Assembly (NCBI GenBank): GCA_020720045.1
Contig: DYPH01000009.1
Coordinates: 1 to 55,874 of the forward strand
Direction of reading: 5' to 3'
DNA: 55,874 nt
Source: Sorangium cellulosum
Lineage (GTDB): Bacteria; Myxococcota_A; Polyangia; Polyangiales; Polyangiaceae
Below the pieces are notes generated by a model. The model did not search any database. It saw only the letters and a list, made by a program, of their open reading frames with translations, and had not been told where the DNA came from. Shown here in pieces: positions 29,641 through 55,874 of the stretch. The position numbers and the translations under genes are program-made. Numbering within the stretch: the stretch's first letter is position 1; each line of letters opens with the position of its first letter.

Positions 29641-29965
29641 CCGGAAATCAACTAACTAGATCACAACCACTAGATCTAGCTGACAGCTAGACTTAGTAGA
29701 AGAAGAACGGGTGCTTGGGCTTGTGCGGCGAACGTTGCATGGGCCCATTTCTATGCGTAATGCACCCAATCGTGCGCCCGCTGCCCGCCGGAGATCCGTC
29801 GTTCGCCCACGATCGGTCGCTCCGCCCTCCAAAGGCCACTCGCTCGCCCGAAAATCCCCACTCTTCCCCGCGAATTCCCAAACGCAAGACGCGCGGAAAC
29901 AGACCCCCTTTTGAGAGCCTGTCCCGCGCTATTCAATTCGGAGGGCGGCGCGTTGCGCGACGCGC
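29641..29965. other. Convergent intergenic block with an AT-rich palindromic patch
   Basis: This 325-bp gap separates two convergent genes. Its first 60 bp are unusually AT-rich for the window and contain CTAGATCTAG and a perfect 8-bp inverted repeat TCTAGCTG-A-CAGCTAGA (29675-29691). The remaining part contains only weak overlapping frames. The patch could be a bidirectional terminator or a mobile-element end beside the transposase gene. Confidence 0.5.
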
Positions 29966-30946
29966 TTACGCCGCCGGCGAAAGCGCGTGCACCTCGCGCG
30001 GATACCCGTAGGTGAAATGCATTTTCCCTGTCCCCGCAGGGAACGTCACGCACCGCTTTCCGGCTTTCACCGCCTCCAAAGCGCTTCGATGGGCCTTCCG
30101 AAAGGCCCGCATTTCCGCGATCAAGCGCTTCGCGACTGCCAGGTCGCCCGCCGTCGTGTGGCGTGGGGTTCGCTCGCCGAACGGCTCAAAGCTCGTCGCT
30201 CGTGTGCGCGGACTCGTCGCCAGGACCCGCAGGCGACCGACAAATCTTCCCGAATGGCGCCGCCTTCCCTGTTTCACGTTCCGTTCGAGATGGGCCGCCG
30301 TCCGCTTTGTCATTTCCGAGAGATCGCCGAACAACACGATCGCTTCCGCCGGCGCCGCCAGCCGGAAGGTTACTTCTGGCGGGTTCGTTGCGTCGTCCTG
30401 GGCCAGGTACTCGAGGGGCCGCCGCACGACGACGGACTTCCCCAAGAGATCTTCCACAGAAGAGACCATTCCAGGCCACTCTTCCGGCGAAGCAACCAGC
30501 CCAGCCGCGACCGGATTGGCAATCACATAGGCGATCTTCTGGGCGATCGCCTCGGCCCCTTCGAGGCGATTGTATTTCTCGGAGCGCCGGCTAAAAATGC
30601 TCTCCGCGAGCCCGTAACGGACCTTCACCATGTTCGCGAACATCGCATTTCGCTTTTGGAGAAACTTGCCGATCTCTCCCCGGCGATCCAACAGGATTTC
30701 GTGAATATGATTCGACATCACACAGACGGCAATCACGGCAACGCCGTACGCCTCGGCATAGCGGGCAGTCGCGTATTGATAGAGCTGCTCCACGCTTGAT
30801 GGGCGTGGCTCCCCGGGGCCTGATGCCGCAGCGCGCGTCTGTTTTCCAGCGCTTGCGTAGTTTGGCGTCAGCTTGTGGGCGCGCTCGACGCAGCGCCGTG
30901 TGACTTCGTAGAAGGTGCCGGGGAGGTATTGCTGGGGCGAAGACAT
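29966..30946 (-). CDS. IS200-type / REP-associated tyrosine transposase (RAYT-like, Y1 HUH)
   Basis: 326 residues. The N-terminal half has the HUH nickase motif SNHIHEIL, preceded by YLPGTFYEVTRRCVERA. It also carries the Tyr-containing helix AYVIANPVAAGLV that forms the phosphotyrosine with nicked DNA. The Arg/Lys-rich C-terminal half ending in FPAGTGKMHFTYGYPREVHA is typical of the long Y1 transposases of myxobacteria. No IS200/605 hairpin ends are obvious, so it may be a domesticated RAYT mobilising short palindromes. A partial element B copy lies about 115 bp upstream and A/B copies are within 500 bp. The ATG at 30946 was chosen over one at 30979. Confidence 0.85.
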   Translation of the reverse strand: MSSPQQYLPGTFYEVTRRCVERAHKLTPNYASAGKQTRAAASGPGEPRPSSVEQLYQYATARYAEAYGVAVIAVCVMSNHIHEILLDRRGEIGKFLQKRNAMFANMVKVRYGLAESIFSRRSEKYNRLEGAEAIAQKIAYVIANPVAAGLVASPEEWPGMVSSVEDLLGKSVVVRRPLEYLAQDDATNPPEVTFRLAAPAEAIVLFGDLSEMTKRTAAHLERNVKQGRRRHSGRFVGRLRVLATSPRTRATSFEPFGERTPRHTTAGDLAVAKRLIAEMRAFRKAHRSALEAVKAGKRCVTFPAGTGKMHFTYGYPREVHALSPAA

Positions 30947-31060
30947 GTCCGCCGCCCCCCAGGCCGCATGCCAACGCAAATTCCCTGGAAAATGCGCAGT
31001 TCACGAGCGGCGAGGGGGTGGCCCCGACCGAATTCGCCTGGCCCGGGCCAGGGGGGGAAG

Positions 31061-31090
31061 CGCCCGGCGAAGCGCCGGATCGGAGAACAA
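31061..31090. repeat. Element B partial copy beside the transposase and manA ends
   Basis: The text CGCCCGGCGAAGCGCCGGAT, followed by CGGAGAACAA, matches 30 bases of the B family (reverse orientation). It sits 1 bp after the manA stop and about 115 bp upstream of the RAYT-like gene. Confidence 0.75.
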
Positions 31091-31091
31091 A

Positions 31092-32402
31092 CTACAGGGC
31101 GAGCTCCCCTTGGCCGACGGTTGCGACGAAGGCGGTGCCCCCCTGAAGGGTGACAGGGGCAGCGTCGGCGGCGATGAAGAGCGCCTCGCTCGGGGCGAGC
31201 GTCATCGGGGGCGTGCCGTCGCTCGCGATCGTGGTGCCGGGGCCGATCGCGACGACAATCGCAGGGCCGTGGATGGGGCCGCTCCCTGCCGACGCGTTTG
31301 CGTCGAACTCCGCGCCGTCTCCCGCTTCGCGGACGGACGCGTTTGTCTCCGCCCGGCGTGACGCCGGGTCGGAGAACTCGTTTGCATCAGACTCCGCGCC
31401 GTCTCCCGCTTCGCGGACGGACGCTCCGCCCGCTTCGTAGCGGGCGAGGGCGAAATCGCGGGCCGGCGTCCGGTAGTGGGCGAAATGATCGGTGCCGACC
31501 GCCGGCTCAAAGACGACGACCGCGTAGGGGGCGATATCGAGGACCTTCGCGAGCTCTTCCCGGTCGACGTACTTCGGCGTGAGGCCGCCGCGGAGGACGT
31601 TGTCGGAGGCGGCCATGATCTCCACGGCGAAGCCCTCCAGGTAGGCGTGCAGGTTCCCCGCGGGGAGGTAGAGCGCCTGATTCGGCTTCAGTTCCAAGAG
31701 GTTGAGGAGCAGCGAGGTGATCGCCCCGGCGTCGTCCGGATAGGCGTCCCCGAGGCGGGCGAGCCAAAAATACGGGTCGGTCTTCGCCGTCGGCCGGCGC
31801 GCCTTGGCAGCCGCCACCGCCGGGCGGACGAGCGCGGCGCGGGCCTCTCCGGTGACGCCGAGGAGGGTCAGAAAGGCTTCGCGGAGGTTTCCTGCGTCGA
31901 GGAGGGTGACGATCGGGGCGAGGGCGTCGACCTCAAGTGCGCGAAGAAGCGCCGCGCTCTCGGCCGGCTCCCGGAAGCCGCAAAGCGCCCAGAAGGGCGT
32001 AAGTACGCAGACAAGTTCCGGTTTGTGGTTGTTGTCTTTGTAGTTCCGGTGGGGGGCTGCCCGCGGAATGCCGAGCGCCTCTTCGTGAGCGAAGCCGGCC
32101 TCCGCTTGCGCCTTGCTCGGGTGGGCCTGCAGGGAGAGCGGCTCGGCGGCGGCGAGGAGCTTGAGCAGGAAGGGGAGGCGCCCGAATTCGGCGGCGATCG
32201 CGGTACCGAGGAATTCGACCGGCCCGGAGGCGATCGCGGCGTCGAGGGGGCGGCCGTCGTCGAGGGAAGACGGGGCGTTCGGATGGGCCCCCATCCAGAG
32301 CTCGGCCTCCGGTTTTTCGCTCGGCGGAAGGCCCCGAAGGGCGGCGAGGTCCTGCGTGGAACCCCAGGGGTAGGCCATCACCGTGTTCGTCAGTCGCTGC
32401 AT
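31092..32402 (-). CDS. manA: Mannose-6-phosphate isomerase (class I) with repeat-derived insert
   Basis: A type I phosphomannose isomerase converting mannose-6-P and fructose-6-P. Zn ligands are in LSLQAHPSKAQAEAGFAHEE (Gln, His), YKDNNHKPELVC (Glu) and LPAGNLHAYLEG (His). The length of 436 is above the usual 390. The excess is a 43-residue insert encoded by elements A-B-A (31297-31425), lying between the two C-terminal cupin strands after YEAGG. It reads SVREAGDGAE twice, with EFSDPASRRAETN between. The insert is exactly 129 bp, so the frame is kept. The catalytic core is intact. The start at 32402 (MQRL) or 32414 is uncertain. Confidence 0.9.
   Translation of the reverse strand: MQRLTNTVMAYPWGSTQDLAALRGLPPSEKPEAELWMGAHPNAPSSLDDGRPLDAAIASGPVEFLGTAIAAEFGRLPFLLKLLAAAEPLSLQAHPSKAQAEAGFAHEEALGIPRAAPHRNYKDNNHKPELVCVLTPFWALCGFREPAESAALLRALEVDALAPIVTLLDAGNLREAFLTLLGVTGEARAALVRPAVAAAKARRPTAKTDPYFWLARLGDAYPDDAGAITSLLLNLLELKPNQALYLPAGNLHAYLEGFAVEIMAASDNVLRGGLTPKYVDREELAKVLDIAPYAVVVFEPAVGTDHFAHYRTPARDFALARYEAGGASVREAGDGAESDANEFSDPASRRAETNASVREAGDGAEFDANASAGSGPIHGPAIVVAIGPGTTIASDGTPPMTLAPSEALFIAADAAPVTLQGGTAFVATVGQGELAL
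31297..31425. repeat. A-B-A repeat cluster inserted in frame in manA
   Basis: Three abutting elements: A (31297-31341, 45 bp), B (31342-31380, 39 bp) and A (31381-31425, 45 bp). Their sum is 129 bp, or 43 codons. The cluster follows a GACGCG, and the first A also ends in GACGCG. On the manA strand they encode two near-identical peptides of 15 residues flanking a 13-residue one. Confidence 0.9.
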
Positions 32403-32490
32403 CGTCGCACCCACGGTACTCGACTTGCCCGCCGGCGGCCCACTTCGCTCCGCGGCGCTTTACGTGGCGCAACGCGGGATCACGCTTGGT

Positions 32491-32618
32491 GCGCGTCCGC
32501 CCGGAACCGCCGGAGGCGGTGAGGAAACGGCGCGCACACGTGCAGGTGCGCGTCCGCCCGGGAACCGCCGGAGGCGTCCGCCCGGAACCGCCGGAAGCGG
32601 TGAGGAAACGGCGCGCAC
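32491..32618. repeat. Element C cluster (REP-like hairpins)
   Basis: Three copies, one truncated, of a hairpin element begin with GCGTCCGCCCGGAACCGCCG at 32493, 32550 and 32574. The first and third continue to AGGAAACGGCGCGCAC, 45 bp in all, and the middle one stops after 24 bp. The hairpin core is CCGCC-GGA-GGCGG. They lie between the divergent manA and lipoprotein genes. They share the first bases with element A but not the rest, so C is a separate or older family. Confidence 0.8.
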
Positions 32619-36922: not shown

Positions 36923-37482
36923 CGTTTCGCGATATCCTCGCGCGCATGGAGCCTGGGAAGCGGCCGATTCGTCGGTACACGGAAGACGGGGCCGAGCTCT
37001 GGTTCGCGCCCGAGGACGGCGTTTCGGTCCGCATCGCGAGCGCGCGGACGGCGGCGTTTCGGCGGCGGGTTCCTCGGGTGGTGATGTTTGGGATCACGAA
37101 CCGCTGCAACCTCGCCTGCAGCTTCTGCTCGCGGGACGCGTCGCTCCCGAGCGCGTGGACCGTCGACAGCGCCGCTTCCATCCTCGAGGAGCTCGCTGCG
37201 GAAGGGGTGCTCGAGGTCGCGTTCGGCGGCGGGGAACCGTTTCTTTTCCAAGGGTTCGACGTGCTCGTGAACCGGCTCCGGGCGACGACGCCGCTCGCCC
37301 TCTCGGTCACGACGAACGGCACCGCCATCACCCGTGCGCGCTGGCCTCGGTTTGCCGGCGTGTTTGGGGTCGTCCGCCTGTCGGTCTATCCGGAGGTCGA
37401 TCTCTTCGGCGAAGACGGCGCTGCGACGGTGCTCCGCGAGGCGGGGCAGCGCTGGGGGGCGAACCTTCTCGTGGACGACGCG

Positions 37483-37527
37483 TTTGCAGAGACCTCCGCG
37501 CCGTCTCCCGCTTCGCGGACGGACGCG
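37483..37527. repeat. Element A copy inside the radical-SAM gene (45 bp, in frame)
   Basis: The 45-bp copy begins after GACGCG and itself ends in GACGCG. It adds 15 codons (FAETSAPSPASRTDA) to the radical-SAM coding frame without disrupting it. Confidence 0.88.
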
Positions 37528-37953
37528 TCGCTCGACGCTCTACCCGGTCAGCTCGTCGCCCTCGCTGCGGCGGGCGCGGCCGATGTGTCGATCCTCTCGT
37601 ACATCGGCGTGGGGAAGCCGATTGCGCTCGGGCCCGGAGCGGCAGGGGCGCGGCAGAGGCTTGCGCAGATCGTTGCGGCGTCGCCGATCCCCTGCCGGCT
37701 CTCGGTCTGCCTCGGCGGGTCGGTCCCCATCCATCGCCTGTGGGACGGCGCCACGCGGAACGGCGATTGCGGCGCCGGCGTCGACTTCGTGTCGCTCCTC
37801 CCCGATCGCACGATGGCCGCCTGCTCCTTCCAAGACCCGATCCCGTCTTTGGCCAAGCCGGTCTCCTCGGCCCGCGACGTCCTCGCGACCTACGTCGTCG
37901 AACGGCTCGCCCTCTCGCTCCCGTCGCCGCGGAGCGGATGCCTTCGCAACAAA

Positions 37954-37989
37954 CTTAACGAACTCAACGAACTCAACGAACTCAGCGAT
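37954..37989 (+). repeat. Four 9-bp repeats encoding Leu-Asn-Glu
   Basis: CTTAACGAA, CTCAACGAA, CTCAACGAA and CTCAGCGAT run head to tail, coding LNE-LNE-LNE-LSD. This is an in-frame microsatellite-like tract inside the radical-SAM gene. Confidence 0.8.
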
Positions 37990-38157
37990 GAACCCGCGCT
38001 GGCGCCTCGCCCGAACATTGCGATTTGGCAGGGGTTTTCCGGGAACAACAGCGGCGAGTGCGTGCTCGCTGCGACCTTCGCCGACGAGACCGACGCCAAG
38101 GCCTACCTGGCGCGGCTCCTGCCGACCTACGAACCGGAGATCGACTACCCGGACGCG

Positions 38158-38195
38158 TTCTCCGATCCGGCGGCTCGCCGGGCGGGGACTAGGCG
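38158..38195. repeat. Element B copy (38 bp) that breaks the radical-SAM gene
   Basis: It follows GGACGCG and ends with GGCG; a GCG is repeated at both borders. Other B copies are 39 bp, so this one lacks one base. The final part reads GGGGACTAGGCG, giving a TAG in the downstream frame. Excision of 38158-38195 restores one open frame. Confidence 0.85.
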
Positions 38196-39223
38196 TGGCA
38201 GGAGGTCTTCGCCGCCGAGAAGATTTCGGTGCCGAGCTACGAGGAAGAGGGGATTTTCCCGCGGCAAACGCCAGAAACGCTGGGTCAAATCGGCGCGACC
38301 GTCTTCGCCGTCGGCTACGGGCTTGATGACGTCTTCCCCGAGCTCCGGGCGCTCGCCTACCGGAAGCGGGCGACGGTGCACCCCGGCGGGATGCACGTGC
38401 ACGGAACGCCCTTCCTCGTCGCCGCCCTCGCGACCGCGTCGCGGGGGGACGCCCAAGCCGCGCTTCGGGTCGCGAGCGAGAAGGGCTTCGGCGCGTATCC
38501 CTACGGGAAGGTTCTCTTTCTCACCGCTCCCCTCGGAGACATCGACGAGCTCGCCGTGCGAGTCTCTGCGGTCGCCGCCGGGCGTCCGGTCGCTGCCGCC
38601 TACGTGGCCGACGGTTCCCCGACGCTGGCCGCCGAGATCCCAGAAGTCTTGAAGCGGCTCGGCGACCGCCCGAAGCTTGCGCCGCGGACGGTCGTTTCGT
38701 TCTCCGAGTGGCCGGCGCCGACGGAAAAAGGCGACGAGGCGGTCGCCCGGTTTGTGCGTTGGCTCGGCGACGAGCGCCACGAGCGCGTCGCGAGCCAGCT
38801 CTGGTTTCCGACCTACCGGGGCACAAGCCGCATCGCCGTCGAGGCGCTCCGCCGGGGGGCCCGCGTGGAGAGCTTTGCCGGGGAAGCGCTCCTTCTCTAC
38901 GTCCACATCTTCGCCGCCTGGCACGCGCCCCGAACCCCCGAATTCCGCGCCCGCCTCGCCGCCTGCGTCGAAGCGGTCCGCACCCTGTTGCCGAACGTCG
39001 CCATCACCGCGGAGGAGCGCGGCCTCCGTTTCAGCCTAACGAGCATCACGCCGGCAGCGACCGTTCAGCCGCTCGTCGCCATCGCCCGCGCGCACCAATT
39101 CGGGTTCCGCGTCGGCGTCCGCGAGGCAGAACCGCTCCACGTCGCCCTCGGGGGGCTCTTGGACGCGCTCTCCGATTCCGGCCGCCGGAATGCACGCCCC
39201 CTGCGGTAGCGTTCCCAAATTCA

Positions 39224-40729
39224 ATGAAGCGTTCTGCCGTGTTCGCCGTTCTCGTGGCGGTCGCCGCCCCGTTGGTTGCCTGCACCCCGTCTCCGCCGTC
39301 GCGGGCCCCCGTGGAAAAGGCCCCTCCAACGCTGGAGCCGGTCCGTTCGCCTGCTTCGCCGGCGCCGAGCGGAGACTCGGCGAAACGGTTGGCGCCCGCC
39401 GAGGTGCCGATCGGCCTTGCGGCGCCGTTTGCTGCGCCGGTGCCCGCGGCGGTCGCCAAGAACGAGGTTGGCGTCGGCCTCCTGGCGAAAGGGAAGTTCG
39501 CCGAGGCGCGCCTCGCGCTGGATGCGGCGGTCGCCCTCGATCCGTCGTTCGTCCTCGCGCGCTACAATCGGGCCTGCGCGGAGGCGCGTGCCGGCGATTT
39601 TGCCGCCGCCGCCCGGGACATGACCGCCGTGTACGACGTCGATTTCGTCGGCTCCCGGGCCCACGCCGAGCACGACGCCGACCTCACCGCCTTCTGGGCA
39701 AGCGCCGAAGGGGGGGCCGTCACCGCGAAGGTCCCCGCCTACGAGGCGCGCTACCAACGGGTGATCGACCGCGGGCTCCGTGCCCTCCTCTGGGCGGGCG
39801 GGGGAGGGCGCGTGCAGCCGACCGTGCTGCGCGTCGGGGTGTTCGACGTCGCGACCCAGCGTTTTGTCGCGGTTGCGCCGCGCGCGAACAAGCCGGTCCT
39901 TGCGTTTGCCGGGGCGGCGCTCCCCTACGCGGTGCTCGTCACCGGGGAGGTCCGCGAGATGCTTGGTGGCGACCTCGACCCGGGCCAGTCGCTCGACACC
40001 CTGCAAACCTACCGCTTCGATACCTCCGGGGCGCCGACGAGCGTCGCCAAGCTCGGCGGCGCCGAGGCCCACCAGGCCGACTGGGGGCTCGCCCCGAACG
40101 GCTACGTTTTCCACGCGTTTCAGCCGACGCTCGCCGCCCACGGGGGGCTCACGGTGACCTACAAAGTCGCCCCGAGCGGAGACGCGGCGAAGCTGGCACC
40201 GCCGACGAAGCGGATCCACGAGGAGCGCGAGGAGCTCCCCGCCGACCGCGCGAGCTACCCGGTGCGGATCCTCGCCGGCTACAACCACTGGGGCCGCGTC
40301 ATCGAGGAGACGACCGCCGGTTACCGCTTCCACGCGGGGTCGGAGAATACGCTCACCCCACCGAGCGGGCGCCCCCTCACGATCCCGAAGGGGATCGGCT
40401 ACTTCCGGGCAGCGCCGAACGTCATCGCCGCCGCCGACGGCCGCCAGCTCCTCCTTGTCTGGCGGGCCGCCACCCTCGCCTGCGACCCCGCCCAGACGAT
40501 CCCGGGCCGCTACAAGCTCGCCCGCGTCTTTCCGGAGACGGGGGAGGTCATCCCCCTCGGCGAAGGGGCCGGGGCCGGATTCGGGGCGTTCGGCTCCGAC
40601 GGGAAGCTGTACGTGCAACGCGATCGGCGCGTTTTCCAGCTGAGTGACGACAGCAAGACCGAGTCGCCGCTCCCGGAGGGGGTGCTCTTCGTGCCCCCGC
40701 TCATCGACGCGCCCGAGTGCGGATTTTGA
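39224..40729 (+). CDS. TPR-like lipoprotein of unknown function
   Basis: 501 residues. The signal ends in VAAPLVACT, then a Pro/Ala/Ser-rich spacer. A TPR-like pair follows near residues 85-130 (GVGLLAKGKFAEARLALDAA and ARYNRACAEARAGDFAAA). The long C-terminal part is beta-rich (likely beta-propeller-like: repeated FDVATQ, YRFDTSG, AGYNHWGRV). No enzymatic motif is seen. Its ATG at 39224 lies 14 bp after the radical-SAM stop. Confidence 0.72.
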   Translation: MKRSAVFAVLVAVAAPLVACTPSPPSRAPVEKAPPTLEPVRSPASPAPSGDSAKRLAPAEVPIGLAAPFAAPVPAAVAKNEVGVGLLAKGKFAEARLALDAAVALDPSFVLARYNRACAEARAGDFAAAARDMTAVYDVDFVGSRAHAEHDADLTAFWASAEGGAVTAKVPAYEARYQRVIDRGLRALLWAGGGGRVQPTVLRVGVFDVATQRFVAVAPRANKPVLAFAGAALPYAVLVTGEVREMLGGDLDPGQSLDTLQTYRFDTSGAPTSVAKLGGAEAHQADWGLAPNGYVFHAFQPTLAAHGGLTVTYKVAPSGDAAKLAPPTKRIHEEREELPADRASYPVRILAGYNHWGRVIEETTAGYRFHAGSENTLTPPSGRPLTIPKGIGYFRAAPNVIAAADGRQLLLVWRAATLACDPAQTIPGRYKLARVFPETGEVIPLGEGAGAGFGAFGSDGKLYVQRDRRVFQLSDDSKTESPLPEGVLFVPPLIDAPECGF

Positions 40730-40734
40730 GGGGG

Positions 40735-40752
40735 CTCGCGGGCGCCCGCGAG
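40735..40752. terminator. Perfect 18-bp palindrome between convergent genes
   Basis: CTCGCGGGCGCCCGCGAG is its own reverse complement. It lies 5 bp after one stop and 5 bp before the convergent stop, so it is probably a bidirectional transcript-end hairpin, though without a T-run. Confidence 0.55.
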
Positions 40753-40757
40753 GCAGA

Positions 40758-41606
40758 CTAGGCGCGGAGCCGTTCGAGGAGCTCTTCGCCGCGCGGATCG
40801 TTGCTCCAGGCGGAGGTGCGCAAGTCGGCGCAATCCCACAGCTCTTGGGCCAGTGCGGTGAGCGTCGCCTCGTCGTCGGCGGTGAACCACCAGTCGGTCT
40901 GATCGGGCGTCGCGGTCAGTAGGAGGCGCCCGCCGGCACCTGTTGAAGGGGGCCCGCCCGCGCGCGAGAACCGGTACTGGGTCCCCGGCCAGCCGGAGGT
41001 CGTCGGGCCTTCGTCGAAGCGCTCGCGGAGGAACGCCAAATCGCGCTCGGTCAGCGGCGTCGCCTGCGCCTGCAGCAGGATCGGGTCTGTTTCGTTGAAG
41101 GTCGGCTCCACCCAAATCGCCGTGTGATCCCAGACTTGGCAGGCGACGAACGTGGAGAAGCTCGGCGCGCAGGGGAGCCACGGGGCCTTGAGTTTCGCCT
41201 CGTCCGTCCCCCTCACTTCGTTCGGACGGACCGAGGCCTCTCCGTCGGGATCGGCAGAAACCACGACGGGCGGGTCGTCGCTGCCGTCGAGGGCGAGTGC
41301 CCACGCGCAGACGTCCTGGTTTTCGCACATAAATACGAGGTGATTGCTCTCGTGAAGCCAGTCCCGCTTCTTGCCCCATGCCCACGAGATCGGCGCGCCG
41401 AGATCTTCGAGGGCGACCGGTGCGTCGCAATTGCTGTGTTTGCGAAGCAGCTCCATGCCGTTGTGCATGCCGAACCAGGCGACGAACGACGCCGGAAATC
41501 GGATCCCGAGCGCCTCCGCGCGGAGCTCCAAGGCGGCCATTGCCAACGGATCGGGCTCACCAGCGATGCCCAAGCGGGCGAGAGTTTGGGTGTGGAAGGG
41601 GGTCAT
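40758..41606 (-). CDS. SMI1/KNR4 (SUKH)-like protein, third gene of module 2
   Basis: 282 residues. The N-terminal half has SUKH-like features: LGIRFPASFVAWFGMHNGMEL, then PISWAWGKKRDWLHE. SUKH proteins include immunity proteins to polymorphic toxins. It starts inside the DUF4276 stop (ATGA overlap), so it is translationally coupled to the ATPase-DUF4276 pair. Its likely roles are guarding against the system's own nuclease or acting as an unrelated cargo immunity gene. The SUKH match is by pattern only. Confidence 0.6.
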   Translation of the reverse strand: MTPFHTQTLARLGIAGEPDPLAMAALELRAEALGIRFPASFVAWFGMHNGMELLRKHSNCDAPVALEDLGAPISWAWGKKRDWLHESNHLVFMCENQDVCAWALALDGSDDPPVVVSADPDGEASVRPNEVRGTDEAKLKAPWLPCAPSFSTFVACQVWDHTAIWVEPTFNETDPILLQAQATPLTERDLAFLRERFDEGPTTSGWPGTQYRFSRAGGPPSTGAGGRLLLTATPDQTDWWFTADDEATLTALAQELWDCADLRTSAWSNDPRGEELLERLRA

Positions 41607-42295
41607 GAAGCGCTCTTACCAAGTGTACCGAGCCGCTCCAGCGCTTCGACCCACGCGTGAAACCGCGGGCACTGTTTGCGGACCGCCGCGATGCCGGCGT
41701 CGGCCAACGCGAGCGGCCCGTGAACGGTCTTCCGGTAGCTTGGAATGGCATTCTCAAGGCGCTTTGAAGGGGCCGTCTCTGCCCCGTCATTCACATCCTC
41801 CGGAAGGAGGTTGATGATCTCTTCGGTGAGCTTCTTGAGACCTTCACGGTCCTGCGCCGTTTCAAGGGTCTTTTCGACGGAAGGGAGCGCGGCAAGCACC
41901 AGCGACTCGACTTCGTGGCGTTGGATGTACGGCAGAAAACGAGGGTCGTTGATTGCGGTCGCCATCGCGCTTTCCAGTGCGGCGCAGCGTTTCATGGAGT
42001 CCTGCTCGCTCGCGGCGGCGGGCAGGCCCGGCATGTTCGTCGGGAGGGCGTAGAGATCGAGCAGCGTCGTGACGCGAACGACCGGCCGCCTGTCTCGCAA
42101 GACGTTGCCGATGTCACGGCGCCAGTGGTCCCAGTTGCTGCCACCACCCATGCGCTTCGTTCCGTTTCGCGCCCGAGACGTGGTGACGACAATTGGCGTT
42201 GCGTGGACCGAGTGAAGAACCAGATGCTCACGCAAGACGTCGCTTACAAACGCCTCTTCGGTCTGCCCTTCCACGACGATGTACAGGGGCGTCAT
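41603..42295 (-). CDS. DUF4276-like (Toprim-type) partner of OLD ATPase (module 2)
   Basis: 230 residues. The N-terminal motif LYIVVEGQTEEAFVSDVL is characteristic of DUF4276, which resembles Toprim nucleases: the EGxTE Glu and a later VTTLLDLYALP Asp would chelate metal. RHEVESLVLAALP adds another acid. Its ATG at 42295 overlaps the ATPase stop (ATGA); the open frame reaches further upstream, inside the ATPase. AAA-DUF4276 pairs resemble AbiL/RloAB-type OLD systems. Confidence 0.75.
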   Translation of the reverse strand: MTPLYIVVEGQTEEAFVSDVLREHLVLHSVHATPIVVTTSRARNGTKRMGGGSNWDHWRRDIGNVLRDRRPVVRVTTLLDLYALPTNMPGLPAAASEQDSMKRCAALESAMATAINDPRFLPYIQRHEVESLVLAALPSVEKTLETAQDREGLKKLTEEIINLLPEDVNDGAETAPSKRLENAIPSYRKTVHGPLALADAGIAAVRKQCPRFHAWVEALERLGTLGKSAS

Positions 42296-49497: not shown

Positions 49498-50124
49498 CTA
49501 CGCCTTCGCCTGGAGCACTCCAAAGTAGGGGCGGAGCGGCATGTCTTTCGTTTCCGCCGCGAGCAGCTTCTTCCGCCCCTCCGCGTTCCCCTTCGGATGC
49601 CGCGCGCGGGCACGTACCTGGAACGCTTTCCACGCCTCTTCGCGGAGGCGTGGCAAATCGCCGTCGTTCAGGCCGAGCTTCTCGAGATCATTGGCGAGCA
49701 CAGGATCGTCGCTTACGAGCCAGAGCCCTTCCTTCCCCGCGCGTCGCTCGTAGCGGAGTTGGTCGACCGTCGTCGCGGGGAGGACCGGATCGACGGTTAA
49801 GCAGTGGCTCCCCTGGCGTTCGTCGCAGGAATGCGGGCTCGAACAGGAGGCGACGAGGTTCGTCCACGTCAGCGCGAGGGTGGGGTCCGTTGAAATCGGG
49901 ACGCGATGGGCGAGCCGGATGGCGCTCGCCCCGTCTCCGTCGGCGCGGATTCTCCCCATGCAGAACGCGCAGAGCCCCCGCTGTTCGGCGACGGCGATCA
50001 GGCGCAGCTTGGGTTTGTCGAGGGAATCGAAAACGGCCCGCGCCTGCTCCTTCCCGGTGAGTGGCCCCTCGGCGGCGACCGCAGTCATCCACGCGGGGCG
50101 CGGCTGCTTGGCGAAGGTCCTCAC
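49498..50124 (-). CDS. HNH endonuclease, Septu PtuB-like (module 5)
   Basis: 208 residues. Zinc/HNH core: CAFCMGRI, then IRLAHRVPI with the catalytic His, LTWTNLVASC and the CDERQG Cys. The pattern fits the TIGR02646-like family of PtuB/retron Ec78-type HNH effectors. The start is a GTG at 50124 that overlaps the TGA at 50121-50123 of the upstream ATPase continuation (GTGA). That overlap implies that the ATPase was once read to 50121. Confidence 0.82.
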   Translation of the reverse strand: MRTFAKQPRPAWMTAVAAEGPLTGKEQARAVFDSLDKPKLRLIAVAEQRGLCAFCMGRIRADGDGASAIRLAHRVPISTDPTLALTWTNLVASCSSPHSCDERQGSHCLTVDPVLPATTVDQLRYERRAGKEGLWLVSDDPVLANDLEKLGLNDGDLPRLREEAWKAFQVRARARHPKGNAEGRKKLLAAETKDMPLRPYFGVLQAKA

Positions 50125-51395
50125 GGCGCCTCCGCGTCGTCGTCCCCTTCCGGCGGGAGCAGACCTTCTTGGAAGACCAGCTCGGGATCGTCCCCCTCCA
50201 CGGTGGCGCGGAGTTCCGCGAGAAGTTCCCGCGCGCGCACCACGTTGTCGGCGTCGACGGCATCTTTCAGCGCGTTGAGCTTGGTCTGGACGTCGGGCGG
50301 ACGACCGCTGTCTCCGAAGACGCCGAGAATGCTGTTTGTGTCGCGTAGGCAGGTGCCCTGATGAACCGGACGCAGCGCGAACTATTCGAGGATACGAACG
50401 TTCTCCGAATGCACCGACGAGAGCACCTGAGGGGAGTGCGTCGTGACCACAAACTGGGTCTTCGGGAAGATGTTCTGGAGCGTCGGAAGGATCGTCCGCT
50501 GGAGCCCCGGATGGAGATGGAGCTCGATCTCATCGATAAGCACCACCGCTTCGTGCTCCAGCGGATTTTCTGCGCCAGGGGTGGCGAGCACCATCCGCCG
50601 CGCGAGATCGCCGATGAGCGCCAAGAGGCACTTTTCGCCGTCAGAGAGTTGTGCGACGTCGAGGCGATGCTCCCCTTTTGTCAGCATCATTCGCTGTTTG
50701 GGGCGCCGCTCGATGCGAAGCTCGGTGAGCCCGGGGAGCATGCGTTCGATCGCATCGCGGACCGCGGGAAGCCGAGACGACACCGGCGCGCCGCCCTCCA
50801 GGTTGGCGAGGCGCTGCTCATTGAAGGCGTCCTCTTCGTCCCGATACCATTCGAAGAAGTCGCGAAAATTGGATGTCCCGTTTTGAAGCGCACCGTCGTA
50901 GGCGGTCGGCACACCATAGGTGTCTACTGTTTGAAAACGCTCGGGGATTTCGAAGACATTTCGCGCAACCGTGTAGTGAACAAAGAGCGGCGGGGTGGTG
51001 TGATTGATTAGAAGTTGCGCTGCATTGTGATCGCGGTCGACGAGGGGGCGGCCGGCCCCTACGAACGCTCTGCTTCGCGTAAAGTTGACCGTCCAACCGG
51101 CAGGGAAGACCCTGGAAACGGATGGCGCGTCCACCTCAAGTTTGAGCGTGCTTTGGTGCGCGCCGTGATGGAGATCTGCGTCGGAGAGAAGCACCAGACC
51201 GGAAACGGTATCGGGGGCGTCGGTGCCCTGCGCGATGTCCTCGTGAATCGCCTGGGCGACCGCGGCGATCGCTGCGAGGATCGACGATTTGCCGGCGCCA
51301 TTCACTCCGACCAGCACCGTCACCGATGGGTGGAAGGCGAGTTCAAGCTGCGCAAAGCCGCGGTAGTTTTCCAGGGAGAGCGTGCGCAGCCGCAT
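50121..51395 (-). pseudogene. PtuA-like ATPase with an in-frame amber codon (module 5)
   Basis: The intact part (51395 to 50385, 337 codons) has Walker A GVNGAGKSS at 30-38, the signature QLSDGEKCLL near 247, Walker B VVLIDEIELHLHP near 286 and TTHSPQVL near 313. It stops at TAG (50384-50382) after VRILE. The same frame continues for 86 codons, opening FALRPVHQGT, then DTNSILGVFGDSGRPPDVQT and helices typical of the PtuA C-terminal domain, to a TGA at 50123-50121 that overlaps the HNH start. It is probably a recent nonsense mutation in a formerly 424-residue ATPase, unless the codon is read through or the base is a sequencing error. Confidence 0.8.
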
Positions 51396-51445
51396 GGCCG
51401 CGACCTATACCTGGCGCCGTCGCGCGAAGCGATAGAGAGAAACCG

Positions 51446-52348
51446 GTGACGCCGCGCCGCCGCCGGCGCTACCGTCGTTCCGTGCTCGCCCGTCGCTGCG
51501 CCCTCGTGTTCGCCCTCGGGGGCGTTTTTGCGTGTGGGGCGCCCGCTCCGGTTTGCCCGGTGCTTCCGGCGGCGCGTTCCATAAGCGCGCCGCCGGCCGT
51601 CGAAGCCTTGCCTCCGGCGCCGGTGCCCGTCCGTTCGCGACCGCCAGCGTCGCGAGAGACGGCGGGCCCACTTCAACAGGTACGCTTCCTGCCGACGATG
51701 GTCGTCGCCGATGAGGAGGGGGTGATCGTCACGACCGAGGGGCTCCCGTTCCTGGAGGAGCCGACGAGCCCGGCGTTTTTGGGGCTCGCCGCCGCCGTCG
51801 AAGAGGCGCTCGCCGATCGTGGGATCGGCAGGGCCGTCGATTTCGCTGGCGAGCTCTCCGTCCGCGAAACGACGGTCCGCGAGCCGATCCGCCCCCTCCC
51901 GCCGCCACCACCGGGGAGGAGCTGTATGGACCTCGCGGAGTCCGCCGCCATGCTGATGCAGTGCCACCTGACCCTGTTCGACAAATGGGCGGTGAGCGGG
52001 AAGGGGACGACGACGACCCGCACGGATGCGGCGCGGCCTGGCGATTATCTTGCGTATCCGCGCTTTTGGGGGCGCTGCCTCGATGACCGGTCGGTGCCTC
52101 GATCGCCGCGATCGGGCGGGATCAGCCTTCGCATCGAGCGCCGGTTTATCGCCGTGGCGAAGGGGAACTTCCCCGAGATCGCATGGAAAACCACCGGCCC
52201 CGCTTCCGAGTGGGCGCGCATCTTGGTGACGCGGGAGGTGCTCCGGAAGGGGCAGCCGCTTCCGCCCGAGCCCGTTGAGGATCCGGCCGGCGGCCCCCTC
52301 TTCCGGAGCCCGCTCGCGGCGCTCGTCGGGGTGCATTGTGGGCGGTGA
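51446..52348 (+). CDS. Putative lipoprotein, function unknown
   Basis: About 300 residues. An Arg-rich N-terminus leads to a signal with the lipobox VFALGGVFACG. A Pro/Ala-rich spacer follows; the folded part contains three Cys residues (GRSCMDLAES, LMQCHLTL, GRCLDDRS). No family is recognised. The start could be the GTG at 51446 or at 51482. It overlaps the start of the thioredoxin gene. Confidence 0.65.
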   Translation: MTPRRRRRYRRSVLARRCALVFALGGVFACGAPAPVCPVLPAARSISAPPAVEALPPAPVPVRSRPPASRETAGPLQQVRFLPTMVVADEEGVIVTTEGLPFLEEPTSPAFLGLAAAVEEALADRGIGRAVDFAGELSVRETTVREPIRPLPPPPPGRSCMDLAESAAMLMQCHLTLFDKWAVSGKGTTTTRTDAARPGDYLAYPRFWGRCLDDRSVPRSPRSGGISLRIERRFIAVAKGNFPEIAWKTTGPASEWARILVTREVLRKGQPLPPEPVEDPAGGPLFRSPLAALVGVHCGR

Positions 52349-52862
52349 ACCGCAGGAGAAGCGTCGCAAATTCCCCCGTTTCCTGGGCGAAATCGCGCTG
52401 GTGCTCGTGCTCGTCTACGGGATCGGCCGCTACCAGACGCGCAACCACCCCCGCGGGCTCCCGCCGAACGTCGCCCTCACCGCCGATTTGGACGTCCCCC
52501 GCCCGGCGAACCTCTCGGACTTCCGTGGGAAACCGACGCTTGTCGTCGTCTGGGCCCCGTGGTGCGGCGTCTGCAAGGCGGAAGCGGACAACGTCGCCCG
52601 GGCAAAGCGCTGGCTCGGCGACCGGGCGAACGTGGTGACCGTCGCCGCCGCCTACGAAAATGTCGACGAAGTACGGGCCTTTGCCAAGGCCCACGACCTG
52701 CCGACGCCGGTCCTCCTCGCGCCGCCCGCCTTCCCGAAGGCCTTCGGGATTCAGGCCTACCCGACCGTCTTCGTCCTCGATGCCGCGGGGAACCTGGTTG
52801 GATCGGCGCAGGGGTACACGAGCACGATCGGCCTCGTCGTCCGCGCGCTCACCGCCGGGTAG
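52338..52862 (+). CDS. Membrane-anchored thioredoxin-fold protein
   Basis: 174 residues. An N-terminal membrane helix (FLGEIALVLVLVYGIG) anchors a thioredoxin domain, probably in the periplasm. The active site is WAPWCGVCKAE and the cis-Pro site is AYPTVF. It resembles ResA/DsbE- or TlpA-type thiol-disulfide proteins. The GTG start overlaps the stop of the upstream lipoprotein gene, suggesting an operon. Confidence 0.82.
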   Translation: MGGEPQEKRRKFPRFLGEIALVLVLVYGIGRYQTRNHPRGLPPNVALTADLDVPRPANLSDFRGKPTLVVVWAPWCGVCKAEADNVARAKRWLGDRANVVTVAAAYENVDEVRAFAKAHDLPTPVLLAPPAFPKAFGIQAYPTVFVLDAAGNLVGSAQGYTSTIGLVVRALTAG

Positions 52863-53436
52863 TTGAGACAGACGGGGCCCGCAGCGCTGCGAGCGCTTGG
52901 CGGATCATCGTCTGCGCGGCGAGCGTCGTCTCCTCGAGGGTGAACCCAAAGAGCGTGCGGTAGTAGTTCCAGGTCGTCGCGCTCAGGAAATAGCGAATGT
53001 TTGCCGCGGCTACGCGGCGCTCCTCGACGGGCACGTCTGGGAACGCGCCGTCGATGCAGCGCTCGGTCGCGCGCCACCGCTCCTTCGACGCCGTCTCTAC
53101 CATCCGTTGGAAAATCTCCGGGTGGAGCGCCGCCCGCGTGAGCGCCCCGCGCGCCTCAAACCGCGCGTAGATCGACGCCACATAGCCGACGAGGCCGGCA
53201 GGTTCGGTCGGCACCGGGGGGAGGTGGAGCGTCTCGGTCACCGCTTCCGTCACCCCGTCGAGGAACGCCTCCCGCGTGGCGAAATAGCGGAAAACGGTGC
53301 GTTCTGCCGTCCCCGCGCGCGCCGCAACCGCCCGCATCGTGAGCGTCTCGACGGAGCCGGCTTCGAGCTCGGCGATCGCCGCCGCGAGGAGGGTCAGGCG
53401 GGTCTGCTCGGAGGTCCGGTCGGGCGACGTGCGCAT
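52849..53436 (-). CDS. TetR-family transcriptional regulator
   Basis: 195 residues. The helix-turn-helix is LTMRAVAARAGTAERTVFRYF near residues 38-58, followed by a helical ligand domain (TTWNYYRTLFGFTLEE near the end). It is divergent from the cupin gene across a perfect 10-bp palindrome (53457-53479), its probable operator. The ATG at 53436 lies 21 bp from the palindrome. The convergent thioredoxin gene overlaps its 3' end by 14 bp. Confidence 0.85.
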   Translation of the reverse strand: MRTSPDRTSEQTRLTLLAAAIAELEAGSVETLTMRAVAARAGTAERTVFRYFATREAFLDGVTEAVTETLHLPPVPTEPAGLVGYVASIYARFEARGALTRAALHPEIFQRMVETASKERWRATERCIDGAFPDVPVEERRVAAANIRYFLSATTWNYYRTLFGFTLEETTLAAQTMIRQALAALRAPSVSTTRR

Positions 53437-53456
53437 CCCCTTGCGGTAGCATGAGC

Positions 53457-53479
53457 GAATGTCATACAGTATGACATTC
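53457..53479. promoter_or_regulatory. TetR operator: perfect 10-bp palindrome
   Basis: GAATGTCATA-CAG-TATGACATTC is a perfect inverted repeat with a 3-bp centre. It lies between the TetR and cupin starts (21 and 35 bp away). The arrangement is classical for repression of both genes. Confidence 0.8.
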
Positions 53480-53514
53480 CCGTCGTCGTCCCCCTTCGCC
53501 TGCGAGAAAAAGCC

Positions 53515-53967
53515 ATGTCCCAGGAGACGTTTCACCTCTGTCGCGCGGAAGATGCGCCGCCCCTCGCGGTGCTCGGCACCGGTGTCCGCTTCGTCGGGCC
53601 TGCTGCGCTCGTCGGTGGGGCCTGGTCGTTGATGCACGTCACCGTCCCCGCCGGGGGAGGGCCGCCGCCCCATCGGCATGCGTGGGGCGAGGCCTACTAC
53701 GTCACCGCGGGGGCGCTTCGGTTCACCCTCGACGCGGGTGTTGTCGACGTCGGGCCCGGCGACTTCCTCTACGTCCCCCCGGATGCCCTCCACGGCTTCG
53801 TCGGCACCTCGGAAGTCCCCGCGCAGGTGCTCATTTTTGATGCCCCGGCGCAGGCGGAGGGCTTCTTCCACGCCGTTCATGCCGGCGGTGATCGCGCCCT
53901 CGGCCCGTCGGAGGTCGTCGCGATCGGCGCCACCCACGGCATCCATTTCGCGCCGCCGGCTCGCTAG
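53515..53967 (+). CDS. Cupin-domain protein
   Basis: 150 residues of small beta-barrel cupin. Metal-binding residues fit PPPHRHAWGEAYYV with two His and a Glu, and a final His in PPDALHGFVG. The function could be a dioxygenase-like or ligand-binding protein; related small cupins include quercetinase-like enzymes. It is under the likely control of the divergent TetR regulator. Confidence 0.78.
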   Translation: MSQETFHLCRAEDAPPLAVLGTGVRFVGPAALVGGAWSLMHVTVPAGGGPPPHRHAWGEAYYVTAGALRFTLDAGVVDVGPGDFLYVPPDALHGFVGTSEVPAQVLIFDAPAQAEGFFHAVHAGGDRALGPSEVVAIGATHGIHFAPPAR

Positions 53968-54378
53968 GTGCGCGTCGACGACGACGGGGCTTTTGGTCGC
54001 TCGCTGGCGGCGATGCACCTCCTCCGAGAACGCGACGCCGTCCTCGCCGCCTTCCGCGGAGCGACCTGCCCGTCACGAACGCTCCTCGTCGTCGGCGAAC
54101 CGGGCGTCGGCAAGCGGACCTTCTGCGCCCCCCTCGCGCGCGCGCTGGGCGGGCCGATCGTCGCGAACATCGACGCCGCCGATGACGAAGAGATCGCCGC
54201 CCACCTCCGAAGGATCCGGCGGTCGCCAGAGCCCTTTTTTGCGACGAGCTCCTGCGCGCTGAGCGATCCCAGCTTCCCGGACGCGCTGCGCCCCTACTTC
54301 CCGTGGTCGGTCGTGATCCCGCCGCTCCGCACGCGCCCCGAGGACGTCGCCCCTTACGTCCACCACCACCTGGCGTGA
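53968..54378 (+). CDS. Truncated AAA+ fragment (sigma54-activator-like)
   Basis: 136 residues. The Walker A-like GEPGVGKRTF lies near residues 43-52. The end VVIPPLRTRPEDVAPYVHHHL resembles the IPPLRERPEDI region of sigma54-dependent activators. The middle lacks the GAFTGA loop and sensor motifs, and the C-terminal half of an activator is missing. It starts with a GTG immediately after the cupin stop. Beyond it the text decays, so it is probably a remnant. Confidence 0.6.
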   Translation: MRVDDDGAFGRSLAAMHLLRERDAVLAAFRGATCPSRTLLVVGEPGVGKRTFCAPLARALGGPIVANIDAADDEEIAAHLRRIRRSPEPFFATSSCALSDPSFPDALRPYFPWSVVIPPLRTRPEDVAPYVHHHLA

Positions 54379-54503
54379 ACCCCGAGGCTGCTCACCGCCA
54401 CCAGGATCACGGCGCGCAGCGCGCGGGGGAGAGAATCGCTCATGCGTGGCGGGATCTACCGGATGTGCCTTCGTGCAGGAACGATCACGGCCGCCCGTTC
54501 GCG

Positions 54504-54531
54504 ACGCCCAGCAAATAAACGTGCTGGGCGT
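54504..54531. repeat. Perfect 10-bp inverted repeat (AAA+ fragment downstream)
   Basis: ACGCCCAGCA and TGCTGGGCGT pair around the 8-base loop AATAAACG. It is a strong hairpin in an otherwise gene-poor stretch, 125 bp after the fragment. Confidence 0.65.
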
Positions 54532-54580
54532 GGGGTCGCGAAGGACGGCCGGCTCTTCGACCGCTTTCCGGCGACGAACG

Positions 54581-54904
54581 TTATCGTTCGCAGTACCCGA
54601 AGCTGCAGCGGGGCGTCGCCGCCGGGCACTCGGCGGAGGTCTTGCACACCTGGCAGGAAGTCCCCACCGTCCGCGAATCCATGTAGCAGCCGCAGGGGTC
54701 CGGCGGCGAATACGACGACATCGGCCCCATGTCCTCGGTGCGGGAGACCTGCATCGCGGACTGGGGCACGAGGCGTTCGCCGATCACGACATCCAAGAAC
54801 TTCACCGTCGGTACCGGAAGCTTGAATGAGAGATAGGCAAGGAGTTGCGCAACGTTGGCGTTAAGCGGCGGCTTGTCGGTACCGACCTTCGCGAAGAAGT
54901 GCAT
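54581..54904 (-). CDS. Cys-rich protein C-terminus, possibly 5'-truncated
   Basis: 107 residues. The C-terminal half is Cys-rich (PDPCGCYMDSRTVGTSCQVC, then TSAECP, then CSFGYCER). The ATG at 54904 is not preceded by a signal peptide, and the open frame runs about 80 bp further upstream without a start codon. It is therefore likely a 3' part of a larger secreted Cys-rich protein whose 5' end was lost. Confidence 0.5.
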   Translation of the reverse strand: MHFFAKVGTDKPPLNANVAQLLAYLSFKLPVPTVKFLDVVIGERLVPQSAMQVSRTEDMGPMSSYSPPDPCGCYMDSRTVGTSCQVCKTSAECPAATPRCSFGYCER

Positions 54905-54982
54905 GCTGCTCCAGAGCGGGTAGGAGCTGAGGCTCGTCCCATACGTGGATAGCGCGCTATCCTGAATGGGACGCGCCTCACT

Positions 54983-55735
54983 TCAACCGTCGTCACGACG
55001 CGATGCCCCGGCTTCGCCGGATTCATCGACAAGCAGGCGTCCGAGGAGCTCTTCGCGGGTGACGTCGCAGTCGGTGAGCATCAGCCCTTCGGTGGCTCGC
55101 GGCGCGCCGGTCGCGTTCTGGGGGTAGTCGTCGGTTTTCGCAAAGCGGCAGCGGATGAACGTCGCCCCGCGGAGGTCGCGTCCGCGCCAGTAGGTGCCTC
55201 GGAAATCGCAGTCGACGAAGCGGGTTCCGTCGGTGGTTGCGAGCGCGCCAAAGTCCTCGGTTGCCCCGAGGTTGCAGCTCCTAAAGTCGCTCCCGGTGAC
55301 GGTCGCGCCGTTCCAGGTGGTGTCCCACAATTCGCACCGGATGAAATCGATTCCGGCGAGCGTCGCGTCCCCCCATTGGGAGCGAAACGCCTGGGTATCG
55401 AGGAGGATCGAGTTCTTCAGGACGGCACGGTTAAAGCGACCGAGGTTGAGGTTGCAGGTATCAAAGAGCACCTCTTCAAACGAGGCACTCTGGCACCGCG
55501 CCGACAGGAGCAGCGTCCGCCGCAGTTGGCTCTTGGAGCATTCTGTACCTCGGAGGATGGCGTGCCGGAGATCGCACTCTTCAAACTCGGTATTTCGCAC
55601 CTGGACGCGCGTGAGATCCCACACTTGAAAGGAGCTGGCGACGTAGCGCCGCCCCTCCACCACAAGCCGTTCCCCGGTCCGGGAGCCGTTGAGCCACGCC
55701 TCGTGGGCGGTCACCGTCGCGCGCGTGAGTTCCAT
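54983..55735 (-). CDS. Pentapeptide-repeat protein
   Basis: 250 residues with the A/S-(N/D)-(L/F)-x-x periodicity of pentapeptide proteins (for example EFEECDLRHAILRGTECS, IDFIRCELWDTTWNGA, VDCDFRGTYWRGRDLRGA). They fold into a right-handed quadrilateral beta-helix that mimics DNA or binds proteins; some protect gyrase. The specific role is unknown. No signal peptide is seen. The tail is Asp/Arg-rich. The ATG at 55735 was chosen as the first in a coherent frame. Confidence 0.85.
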   Translation of the reverse strand: MELTRATVTAHEAWLNGSRTGERLVVEGRRYVASSFQVWDLTRVQVRNTEFEECDLRHAILRGTECSKSQLRRTLLLSARCQSASFEEVLFDTCNLNLGRFNRAVLKNSILLDTQAFRSQWGDATLAGIDFIRCELWDTTWNGATVTGSDFRSCNLGATEDFGALATTDGTRFVDCDFRGTYWRGRDLRGATFIRCRFAKTDDYPQNATGAPRATEGLMLTDCDVTREELLGRLLVDESGEAGASRRDDG

Positions 55736-55774
55736 CGGGGCGATGCTTTCACAGCAGCCTCGTCGAGGCGATCT

Positions 55775-55874
55775 GCATCGGACTTCGCGCCGTCTCCCGC
55801 TCCGCGGACGGACGCGTCAGCATCGGACTTCGCGCCGTCTCCCGCTCCGCGGACGGACGCGTCAGCATCGGACT
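55775..55874. repeat. Element A tandem array at the right end of the window
   Basis: Two full 45-bp units (55775-55819 and 55820-55864) and the first ten bases of a third. They begin GCATCGGACTTCGCGCCGTC and carry the CCGCGGACGGACGCG core. They are the reverse-orientation relatives of the array at 1-90. Confidence 0.9.

Follow-up and report, generated by a model that had tools for sequence, protein, structure and literature searches.

The window analyzed here (55,874 nt of Sorangium cellulosum, assembly GCA_020720045.1, contig DYPH01000009.1, positions 1 to 55,874 of the forward strand) probably holds two kinds of mobile DNA side by side: an IS-like element with ends of its own, which carries the gene of a predicted Y1 transposase (tnpA), and two independently mobile families of short palindromes, P39 and P45. 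A first-pass annotation, in which P45 was element A and P39 element B, had described the transposase as surrounded by these palindromes and proposed that it could mobilize one or both of them in trans. The features are collected in Table 1; the genome searched comprises 6.34 Mb, and the sister genome used for comparison is that of a congener, a Myxococcales MAG.

Table 1 Features of the window, and sites at which P39 or P45 units differ cleanly between the two genomes
Feature	Position	Strand	Description
IS-like unit with tnpA	29673..31057	-	About 1.38 kb; from alignment of 9-10 copies and paralogue BLAST ends
IS right-end palindrome AAGTCTAGCTGTCAGCTAGATCT	29672..29694	-	Family at 13 distinct genome places, at 7 of which it forms the right end of a tnpA copy
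tnpA	29966..30946	-	326-aa predicted HUH/Y1 transposase; TnpA_REP (RAYT) fold in the model; long C-terminal part
IS left-end palindrome CCTGGCCCGGGCCAGG	31037..31052	-	Conserved upstream of the aligned tnpA copies
Truncated P39	31062..31088	-	Between manA stop and IS left end
manA	31092..32414	-	Mannose-6-phosphate isomerase, 440 aa; C-terminal part holds P45-P39-P45
P45 core	31307..31340	+	Inside manA; 45-bp unit 31291-31335 missing from sister manA
P39 core	31345..31377	-	Inside manA; in both genomes
P45 core, second	31391..31424	+	Inside manA; in both genomes
P45 unit, 45 bp	37476..37520	+	Within a 735-codon open frame; sister genome without the unit
Clean site W31291			45 bp, in manA; filled here, empty in sister
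Clean site W37476			45 bp; filled here, empty in sister
Clean site L023			135 bp = three units; filled here, empty in sister
Clean site L204			45 bp; empty in sister; separate larger difference nearby
Clean site L194			39 bp; filled here, empty in sister
Clean site L058	about 479-486		39 bp; filled here, empty in sister
Clean site L060			Two units; filled here, empty in sister

The transposase and its IS-like element

The tnpA reading frame is open, as annotated, and its translation contains both the HUH motif SNHIHEI, supplying H80 and H82, and the sequence YVIANP, in which Y140 sits; all 41 aligned relatives share S78, H80, H82, Y140, and N144 without exception. Taken as a single sequence, TnpA gave a weak Pfam match to Y1_Tnp (15.8 bits versus a cut-off of 23) and no match in a PDB search, and it missed the cut-off of the NCBIfam equivalog NF047646 (REP_Tyr_transpos; 40.1 bits versus 80), a model matched by 39 of the 41 relatives. 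A profile built from the 41 relatives ranked E. coli TnpA_REP (4er8) first (E 2.7e-6), with Y140 aligned to the Tyr of YIYINP. The AlphaFold2 model is confident (pLDDT 89.1), and its closest structure is again 4er8 (Z 13.7, rmsd 3.0, 155 of 165 residues), followed by the IS608 transposase (Z 8.9), with the ISDra2 transposase also behind. Because the profile match, the fold match of the model, and the invariant catalytic residues agree, we assign TnpA as a TnpA_REP-type Y1 nuclease, of predicted activity, with an extra C-terminal part (about residues 170-326); the RAYT-like identity first read from the motifs is thereby upheld by profile and predicted fold. Further RAYTs were absent from the genome in the NF047646 search (11 places, all of the tnpA family), as were other Y1_Tnp families with the Y1_Tnp model (2 places, both of the tnpA family).

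The TnpA protein is encoded at 12 places in the genome, 9 of them full-length, at 66-82% identity. The DNA around these copies can be aligned solely between the left-end and right-end palindromes, and BLAST of non-orthologous copies halts at identical edges, delimiting a unit of 1335-1408 bp in the 8 copies measured. Both ends carry a conserved hairpin, the two palindromes being unlike each other, and neither P39 nor P45 lies at either terminus in those 8 copies. Terminal inverted repeats were not found, the left and right ends being no more alike than shuffled sequences in all 8 copies, and no shared target or direct repeat was seen outside the ends, in a comparison of filled sites only. The 12 places and the ends of its own rule out a single-copy RAYT beside its REPs. 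A truly dispersed REP was likewise rejected for the right-end palindrome, 7 of whose 13 distinct places are IS ends; 627 kb of unselected sister contigs contain two right-end and no left-end matches. The right-end palindrome also occurs apart from tnpA right ends, at G000:C319:20519 (L094) and G000:C142:28365 (L086). The element is old: its copies are only 66-82% identical, and the comparable ones are common to the sister genome, the site being occupied in both genomes in all four cases with an aligned outside flank (the window copy, L007, L011, and L012).

The P39 and P45 palindromes

P45 has the core CGCGCCGTCTCCCGCTTCGCGGACGGACGC in a 45-bp unit, and P39 has the core GTTCTCCGATCCGGCGNNNCGCCGGGCGGAGAC in a 39-bp unit. 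Allowing up to 3 mismatches, the genome contains 241 copies of P45 (114 + 127) and 165 copies of P39 (83 + 82), numbers that lie beyond chance because the same patterns read backwards give none. Both families are short palindromes in high copy number, as REPs are, and among the matches listed many form tandem arrays of 45- and 39-bp period. The 5′ GTAG/GTGG foot is missing from P39, which starts with GTTC, and by eye was not seen in P45 among the copies listed. The P39 stem is bulged, and some of the changes in it are compensatory, for example at pair 3-30 in 5 of 79 distinct cores. The A-B-A cluster of the first-pass annotation corresponds to P45-P39-P45 inside manA, and its partial element B, about 115 bp upstream of the tnpA ATG, to the truncated P39, the final six bases of which are gone at the start of the IS left end and the hairpin tip of which is lost in the sister genome.

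Other repeats were seen as well. A third palindrome family (GCGTCCGCCCGGAACCGCCG...CGGCGGTGAGGAAACGGCGCGCAC, 32493-32618) is polymorphic between the two genomes; it is inserted in the sister genome at 32843 (54 bp, with the direct repeat GCAGCTGCG) and in L048 (a copy of 57 bp). A fourth (GCGAGAGACGGCGGGCCCAC..., 51635-51679; also in L050, L045, and L009) differs in length by 75 and 111 bp and has 14 matches in the 627 kb of unselected sister contigs. A fifth (TTCCTCGATCCGCGC..GCGGGCGAGGA, in L011 and L058) resembles a sibling of P39, with differences of 35 or 36 bp. The window further contains a tandem array of 42-bp period (43475-43730), an 89-bp direct repeat (47373-47461 and 49333-49421; 98% identical, spacing 1960 bp), and a tandem repeat of 14 bp (46513-46565).

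Mobility of P39 and P45

Comparison with the sister genome was possible for 22 site clusters: 4 were identical, 8 had a different copy number, and 10 were without a detectable sister copy. Inspection of these 10 left 5 clean cases; W31056, L073, and L192 had a lost or degraded hairpin tip, L038 and L189 were messy, and these five were excluded from the tally. Together with W31291 (clustered as a copy-number difference) and L023, the clean status of which comes from direct sister alignments, there are seven sites, in unrelated places, at which the sister genome is empty and the flanks are undisturbed. Because presence differs so cleanly, P39 and P45 have moved since the two genomes split, and with two genomes compared the differences are most plausibly explained by insertion rather than by precise loss. 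At E 1e-50, the region 37900-55874 had no match in the sister genome, which is uninformative alone. The hairpin tip of P39 has been lost repeatedly in one genome only (31062-31088, L261, L104, and L165, where 12 bp are lost relative to L004, with similar losses at the others).

Substitutions around 13 insertions were sorted by codon position. At manA, W37475, L242, and L191 they favor a single codon position that is shared by the two sides (less cleanly at L050), so that these four insertions lie in frame within genes; like RPEs, the palindromes have therefore entered unrelated protein genes in frame. The codon class shifts across the insertion at L194, L204, L023, and L060, as would be seen at the edge of a gene or in intergenic DNA, with the same unit lengths, and the pattern is ambiguous for the remaining 4 of the 13.

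The direct repeats flanking P39 and P45 are short and variable. Their excess for P39, 0.49 of 5 bases, is larger than in any of 200 permutations, and that for P45, 0.31, does not exceed the permutations (maximum 0.40). Y1 transposition is not known to produce flanking direct repeats; as proof against a Y1 mechanism, target-site duplication was set aside as too infirm, P39 exceeding the permutations and P45 not.

Association of tnpA with P39 and P45

The description of the transposase as surrounded by the palindromes holds for the window copy, its sister orthologue, and one further sister copy, but not for the other tnpA copies. Outside the IS, the window copy alone among the 9 genome copies has P39 or P45 within 1 kb, the other 8 being without the flanking palindromes of a REPtron; in the sister genome 2 of 9 copies have them, namely the window orthologue and L169, in which the first codons (the 5′ end) of tnpA are replaced by a P45-P39-P39 array. 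When the IS itself is included with 1 kb around it, P39 or P45 occurs at 4 of 9 full-length loci here and, in the sister genome, at 3 of the 9 copies examined (with as many as 6 or 5 mismatches allowed, upstream distances being measured from the gene start). For 3.4-kb windows drawn at random from unselected sister contigs the fraction is 0.086, a background to be read with the roughly twofold higher density of P39/P45 in the present genome. The excess is mostly P39 lying right behind the tnpA stop, within the IS, with degenerate copies common to related ISs: P39-like sequence directly follows the stop in L004, L005, and L010, and is degenerate in L007 and L009. The IS has therefore carried P39. 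P39 and P45 insert in and around the IS as in other DNA, and no REPtron layout has been formed; the anatomy expected of a cognate enzyme-palindrome pair is missing.

Among 116 relatives, close TnpA relatives (at least 64% identity) occur in the present genome and its congener alone, whereas any TnpA homologue is found in 40, with at most 39% identity outside the genus among the matches listed. P39 is likewise present in 2 of the 116 relatives; the same two genomes are the only ones with P45, both among the 116 and among 377 genomes of the phylum. The correlation is perfect, but since it is confined to a single genus the co-occurrence counts as one event.

Discussion

On the reading that we prefer, TnpA would serve to transpose its own IS of 1.34-1.41 kb, most likely by recognizing, in single-stranded form, the two dissimilar hairpins at the IS ends. 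P39 and P45 would be independent REP-like hairpin elements, recently mobile, which insert as discrete 39- and 45-bp units, within genes and between them, and which additionally expand in tandem. A unit length that is a multiple of the codon may let insertions inside genes survive, presumably under selection on frame. They are probably moved by machinery acting in trans, for which tnpA would be the best single candidate. Several observations count against keeping the two kinds of DNA apart: the P39 inside IS copies, the locus counts above background, and the shared narrow distribution. A transposase that stays in place while the palindromes move is the role supposed for RAYTs with REPs, and a static TnpA beside mobile palindromes would fit it.

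The source of the mobility is a separate matter. It may well be, at somewhat less than an even chance, that another, unrecognized enzyme moves P39 and P45, as with the CGTC REPs and RPEs, which have no known dedicated transposase. No flanking transposase is reported for CGTC REPs, RPE-4 and RPE-6 among them (Di Nocera 2013), and the weak flanking repeats of P39 point the same way; the flanking repeats of P45, on the other hand, stay below the permutation maximum, and the search for candidate enzymes covered Y1 models alone.

That the window TnpA moves P39 and/or P45 in trans, in the manner of RAYTs and REPs, while keeping its own IS ends, is in our estimate unlikely. The TnpA_REP fold, the position of TnpA as the sole Y1/REP_Tyr family found in the genome, the same two genomes for gene and palindromes, the bulged and partly compensated P39 hairpin, the P39 within several IS copies, and the mobility of the palindromes since the split beside a static IS all speak for this part of the original proposal. 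Against it, the IS has its own, different end palindromes, 8 of 9 copies are without the REPtron layout outside the IS, P39 starts with GTTC instead of GTAG/GTGG, the co-occurrence concerns one genus, and one enzyme would have to serve at least two unrelated palindrome families. A wider reading, that a multi-copy enzyme of TnpA_REP fold with a long C-terminal domain moves in trans at least two unrelated families of in-frame 39/45-bp hairpins, appears slightly less likely still. It is improbable that P39 and P45 do not transpose and that slippage, gene conversion, or precise deletion makes all the differences, as the tandem copy-number changes and the repeatedly lost hairpin tip might suggest, since seven unrelated sister sites are without the unit, flanks undisturbed, and precise loss that often is less likely than insertion.

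The genus lends itself to the study of how REPs and coding palindromes such as RPEs spread: filled and empty sites can be placed precisely in its two sister genomes, the units are short and discrete, and there is a single family of Y1 transposases. P39 and P45 add 13 or 15 residues in frame, a possible route to new protein segments, and mobilization in trans by TnpA, if true, would be the missing enzyme link from REPs to RPE-like coding palindromes.

It is worth comparing the two kinds of DNA with known systems. TnpA shares with TnpA_REP/RAYT (TnpA_Y1 class 2 as described by Quentin et al. 2018) the HxH and Y---NP motifs and a predicted fold nearest 4er8, but differs in its 12 divergent places, its 326 aa with a long C-terminal part, its IS-like unit with own ends, the lack of flanking REPs at most copies, and an NF047646 score below the cut-off. 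Each tnpA_REP is described as going with its own REP family, whereas two palindrome families that differ in sequence are concerned here, and Table 1 of the same paper lists subclasses 2.1 and 2.3 as long proteins with C-terminal domains and no associated REPs, subclass 2.3 being multi-copy (mean 3.9, 74.8% identity, median 325 aa) (Quentin 2018). By published description only, TnpA resembles these subclasses in length, C-terminal part, and absence of REPs, although the W motif appears by eye to be FS in the window protein. With IS200/IS605 it has in common a Y1 transposase, two end hairpins, and a multi-copy mobile unit, but the protein here is twice as long, the copies are not near-identical, and Y---NP takes the place of Y---Q. 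A REP-type transposase without REP flanks also recalls the TIRYT/TIRtron as described by Di Nocera (2013), an identity ruled out by the lack of terminal inverted repeats in 8 of 8 IS copies. RAYTs without REPs and REPs without RAYTs are both described (Quentin 2018; Di Nocera 2013; Bertels and Rainey 2011; Corneloup 2021; Minnick 2024), and the literature speaks of CGTC REPs without a dedicated transposase and of REP dissemination as poorly understood; in the open-access literature on Myxococcota REPs or tyrosine transposases, no title or abstract start describes a system such as this. The palindromes themselves come closest to the Rickettsia palindromic elements and CGTC REPs, likewise small, in frame in unrelated genes, and without a known transposase, although RPEs are given as about 150 bp (PMC10969869) versus 39/45 bp here, differ in sequence, and contrast with the GC-rich host of P39 and P45.
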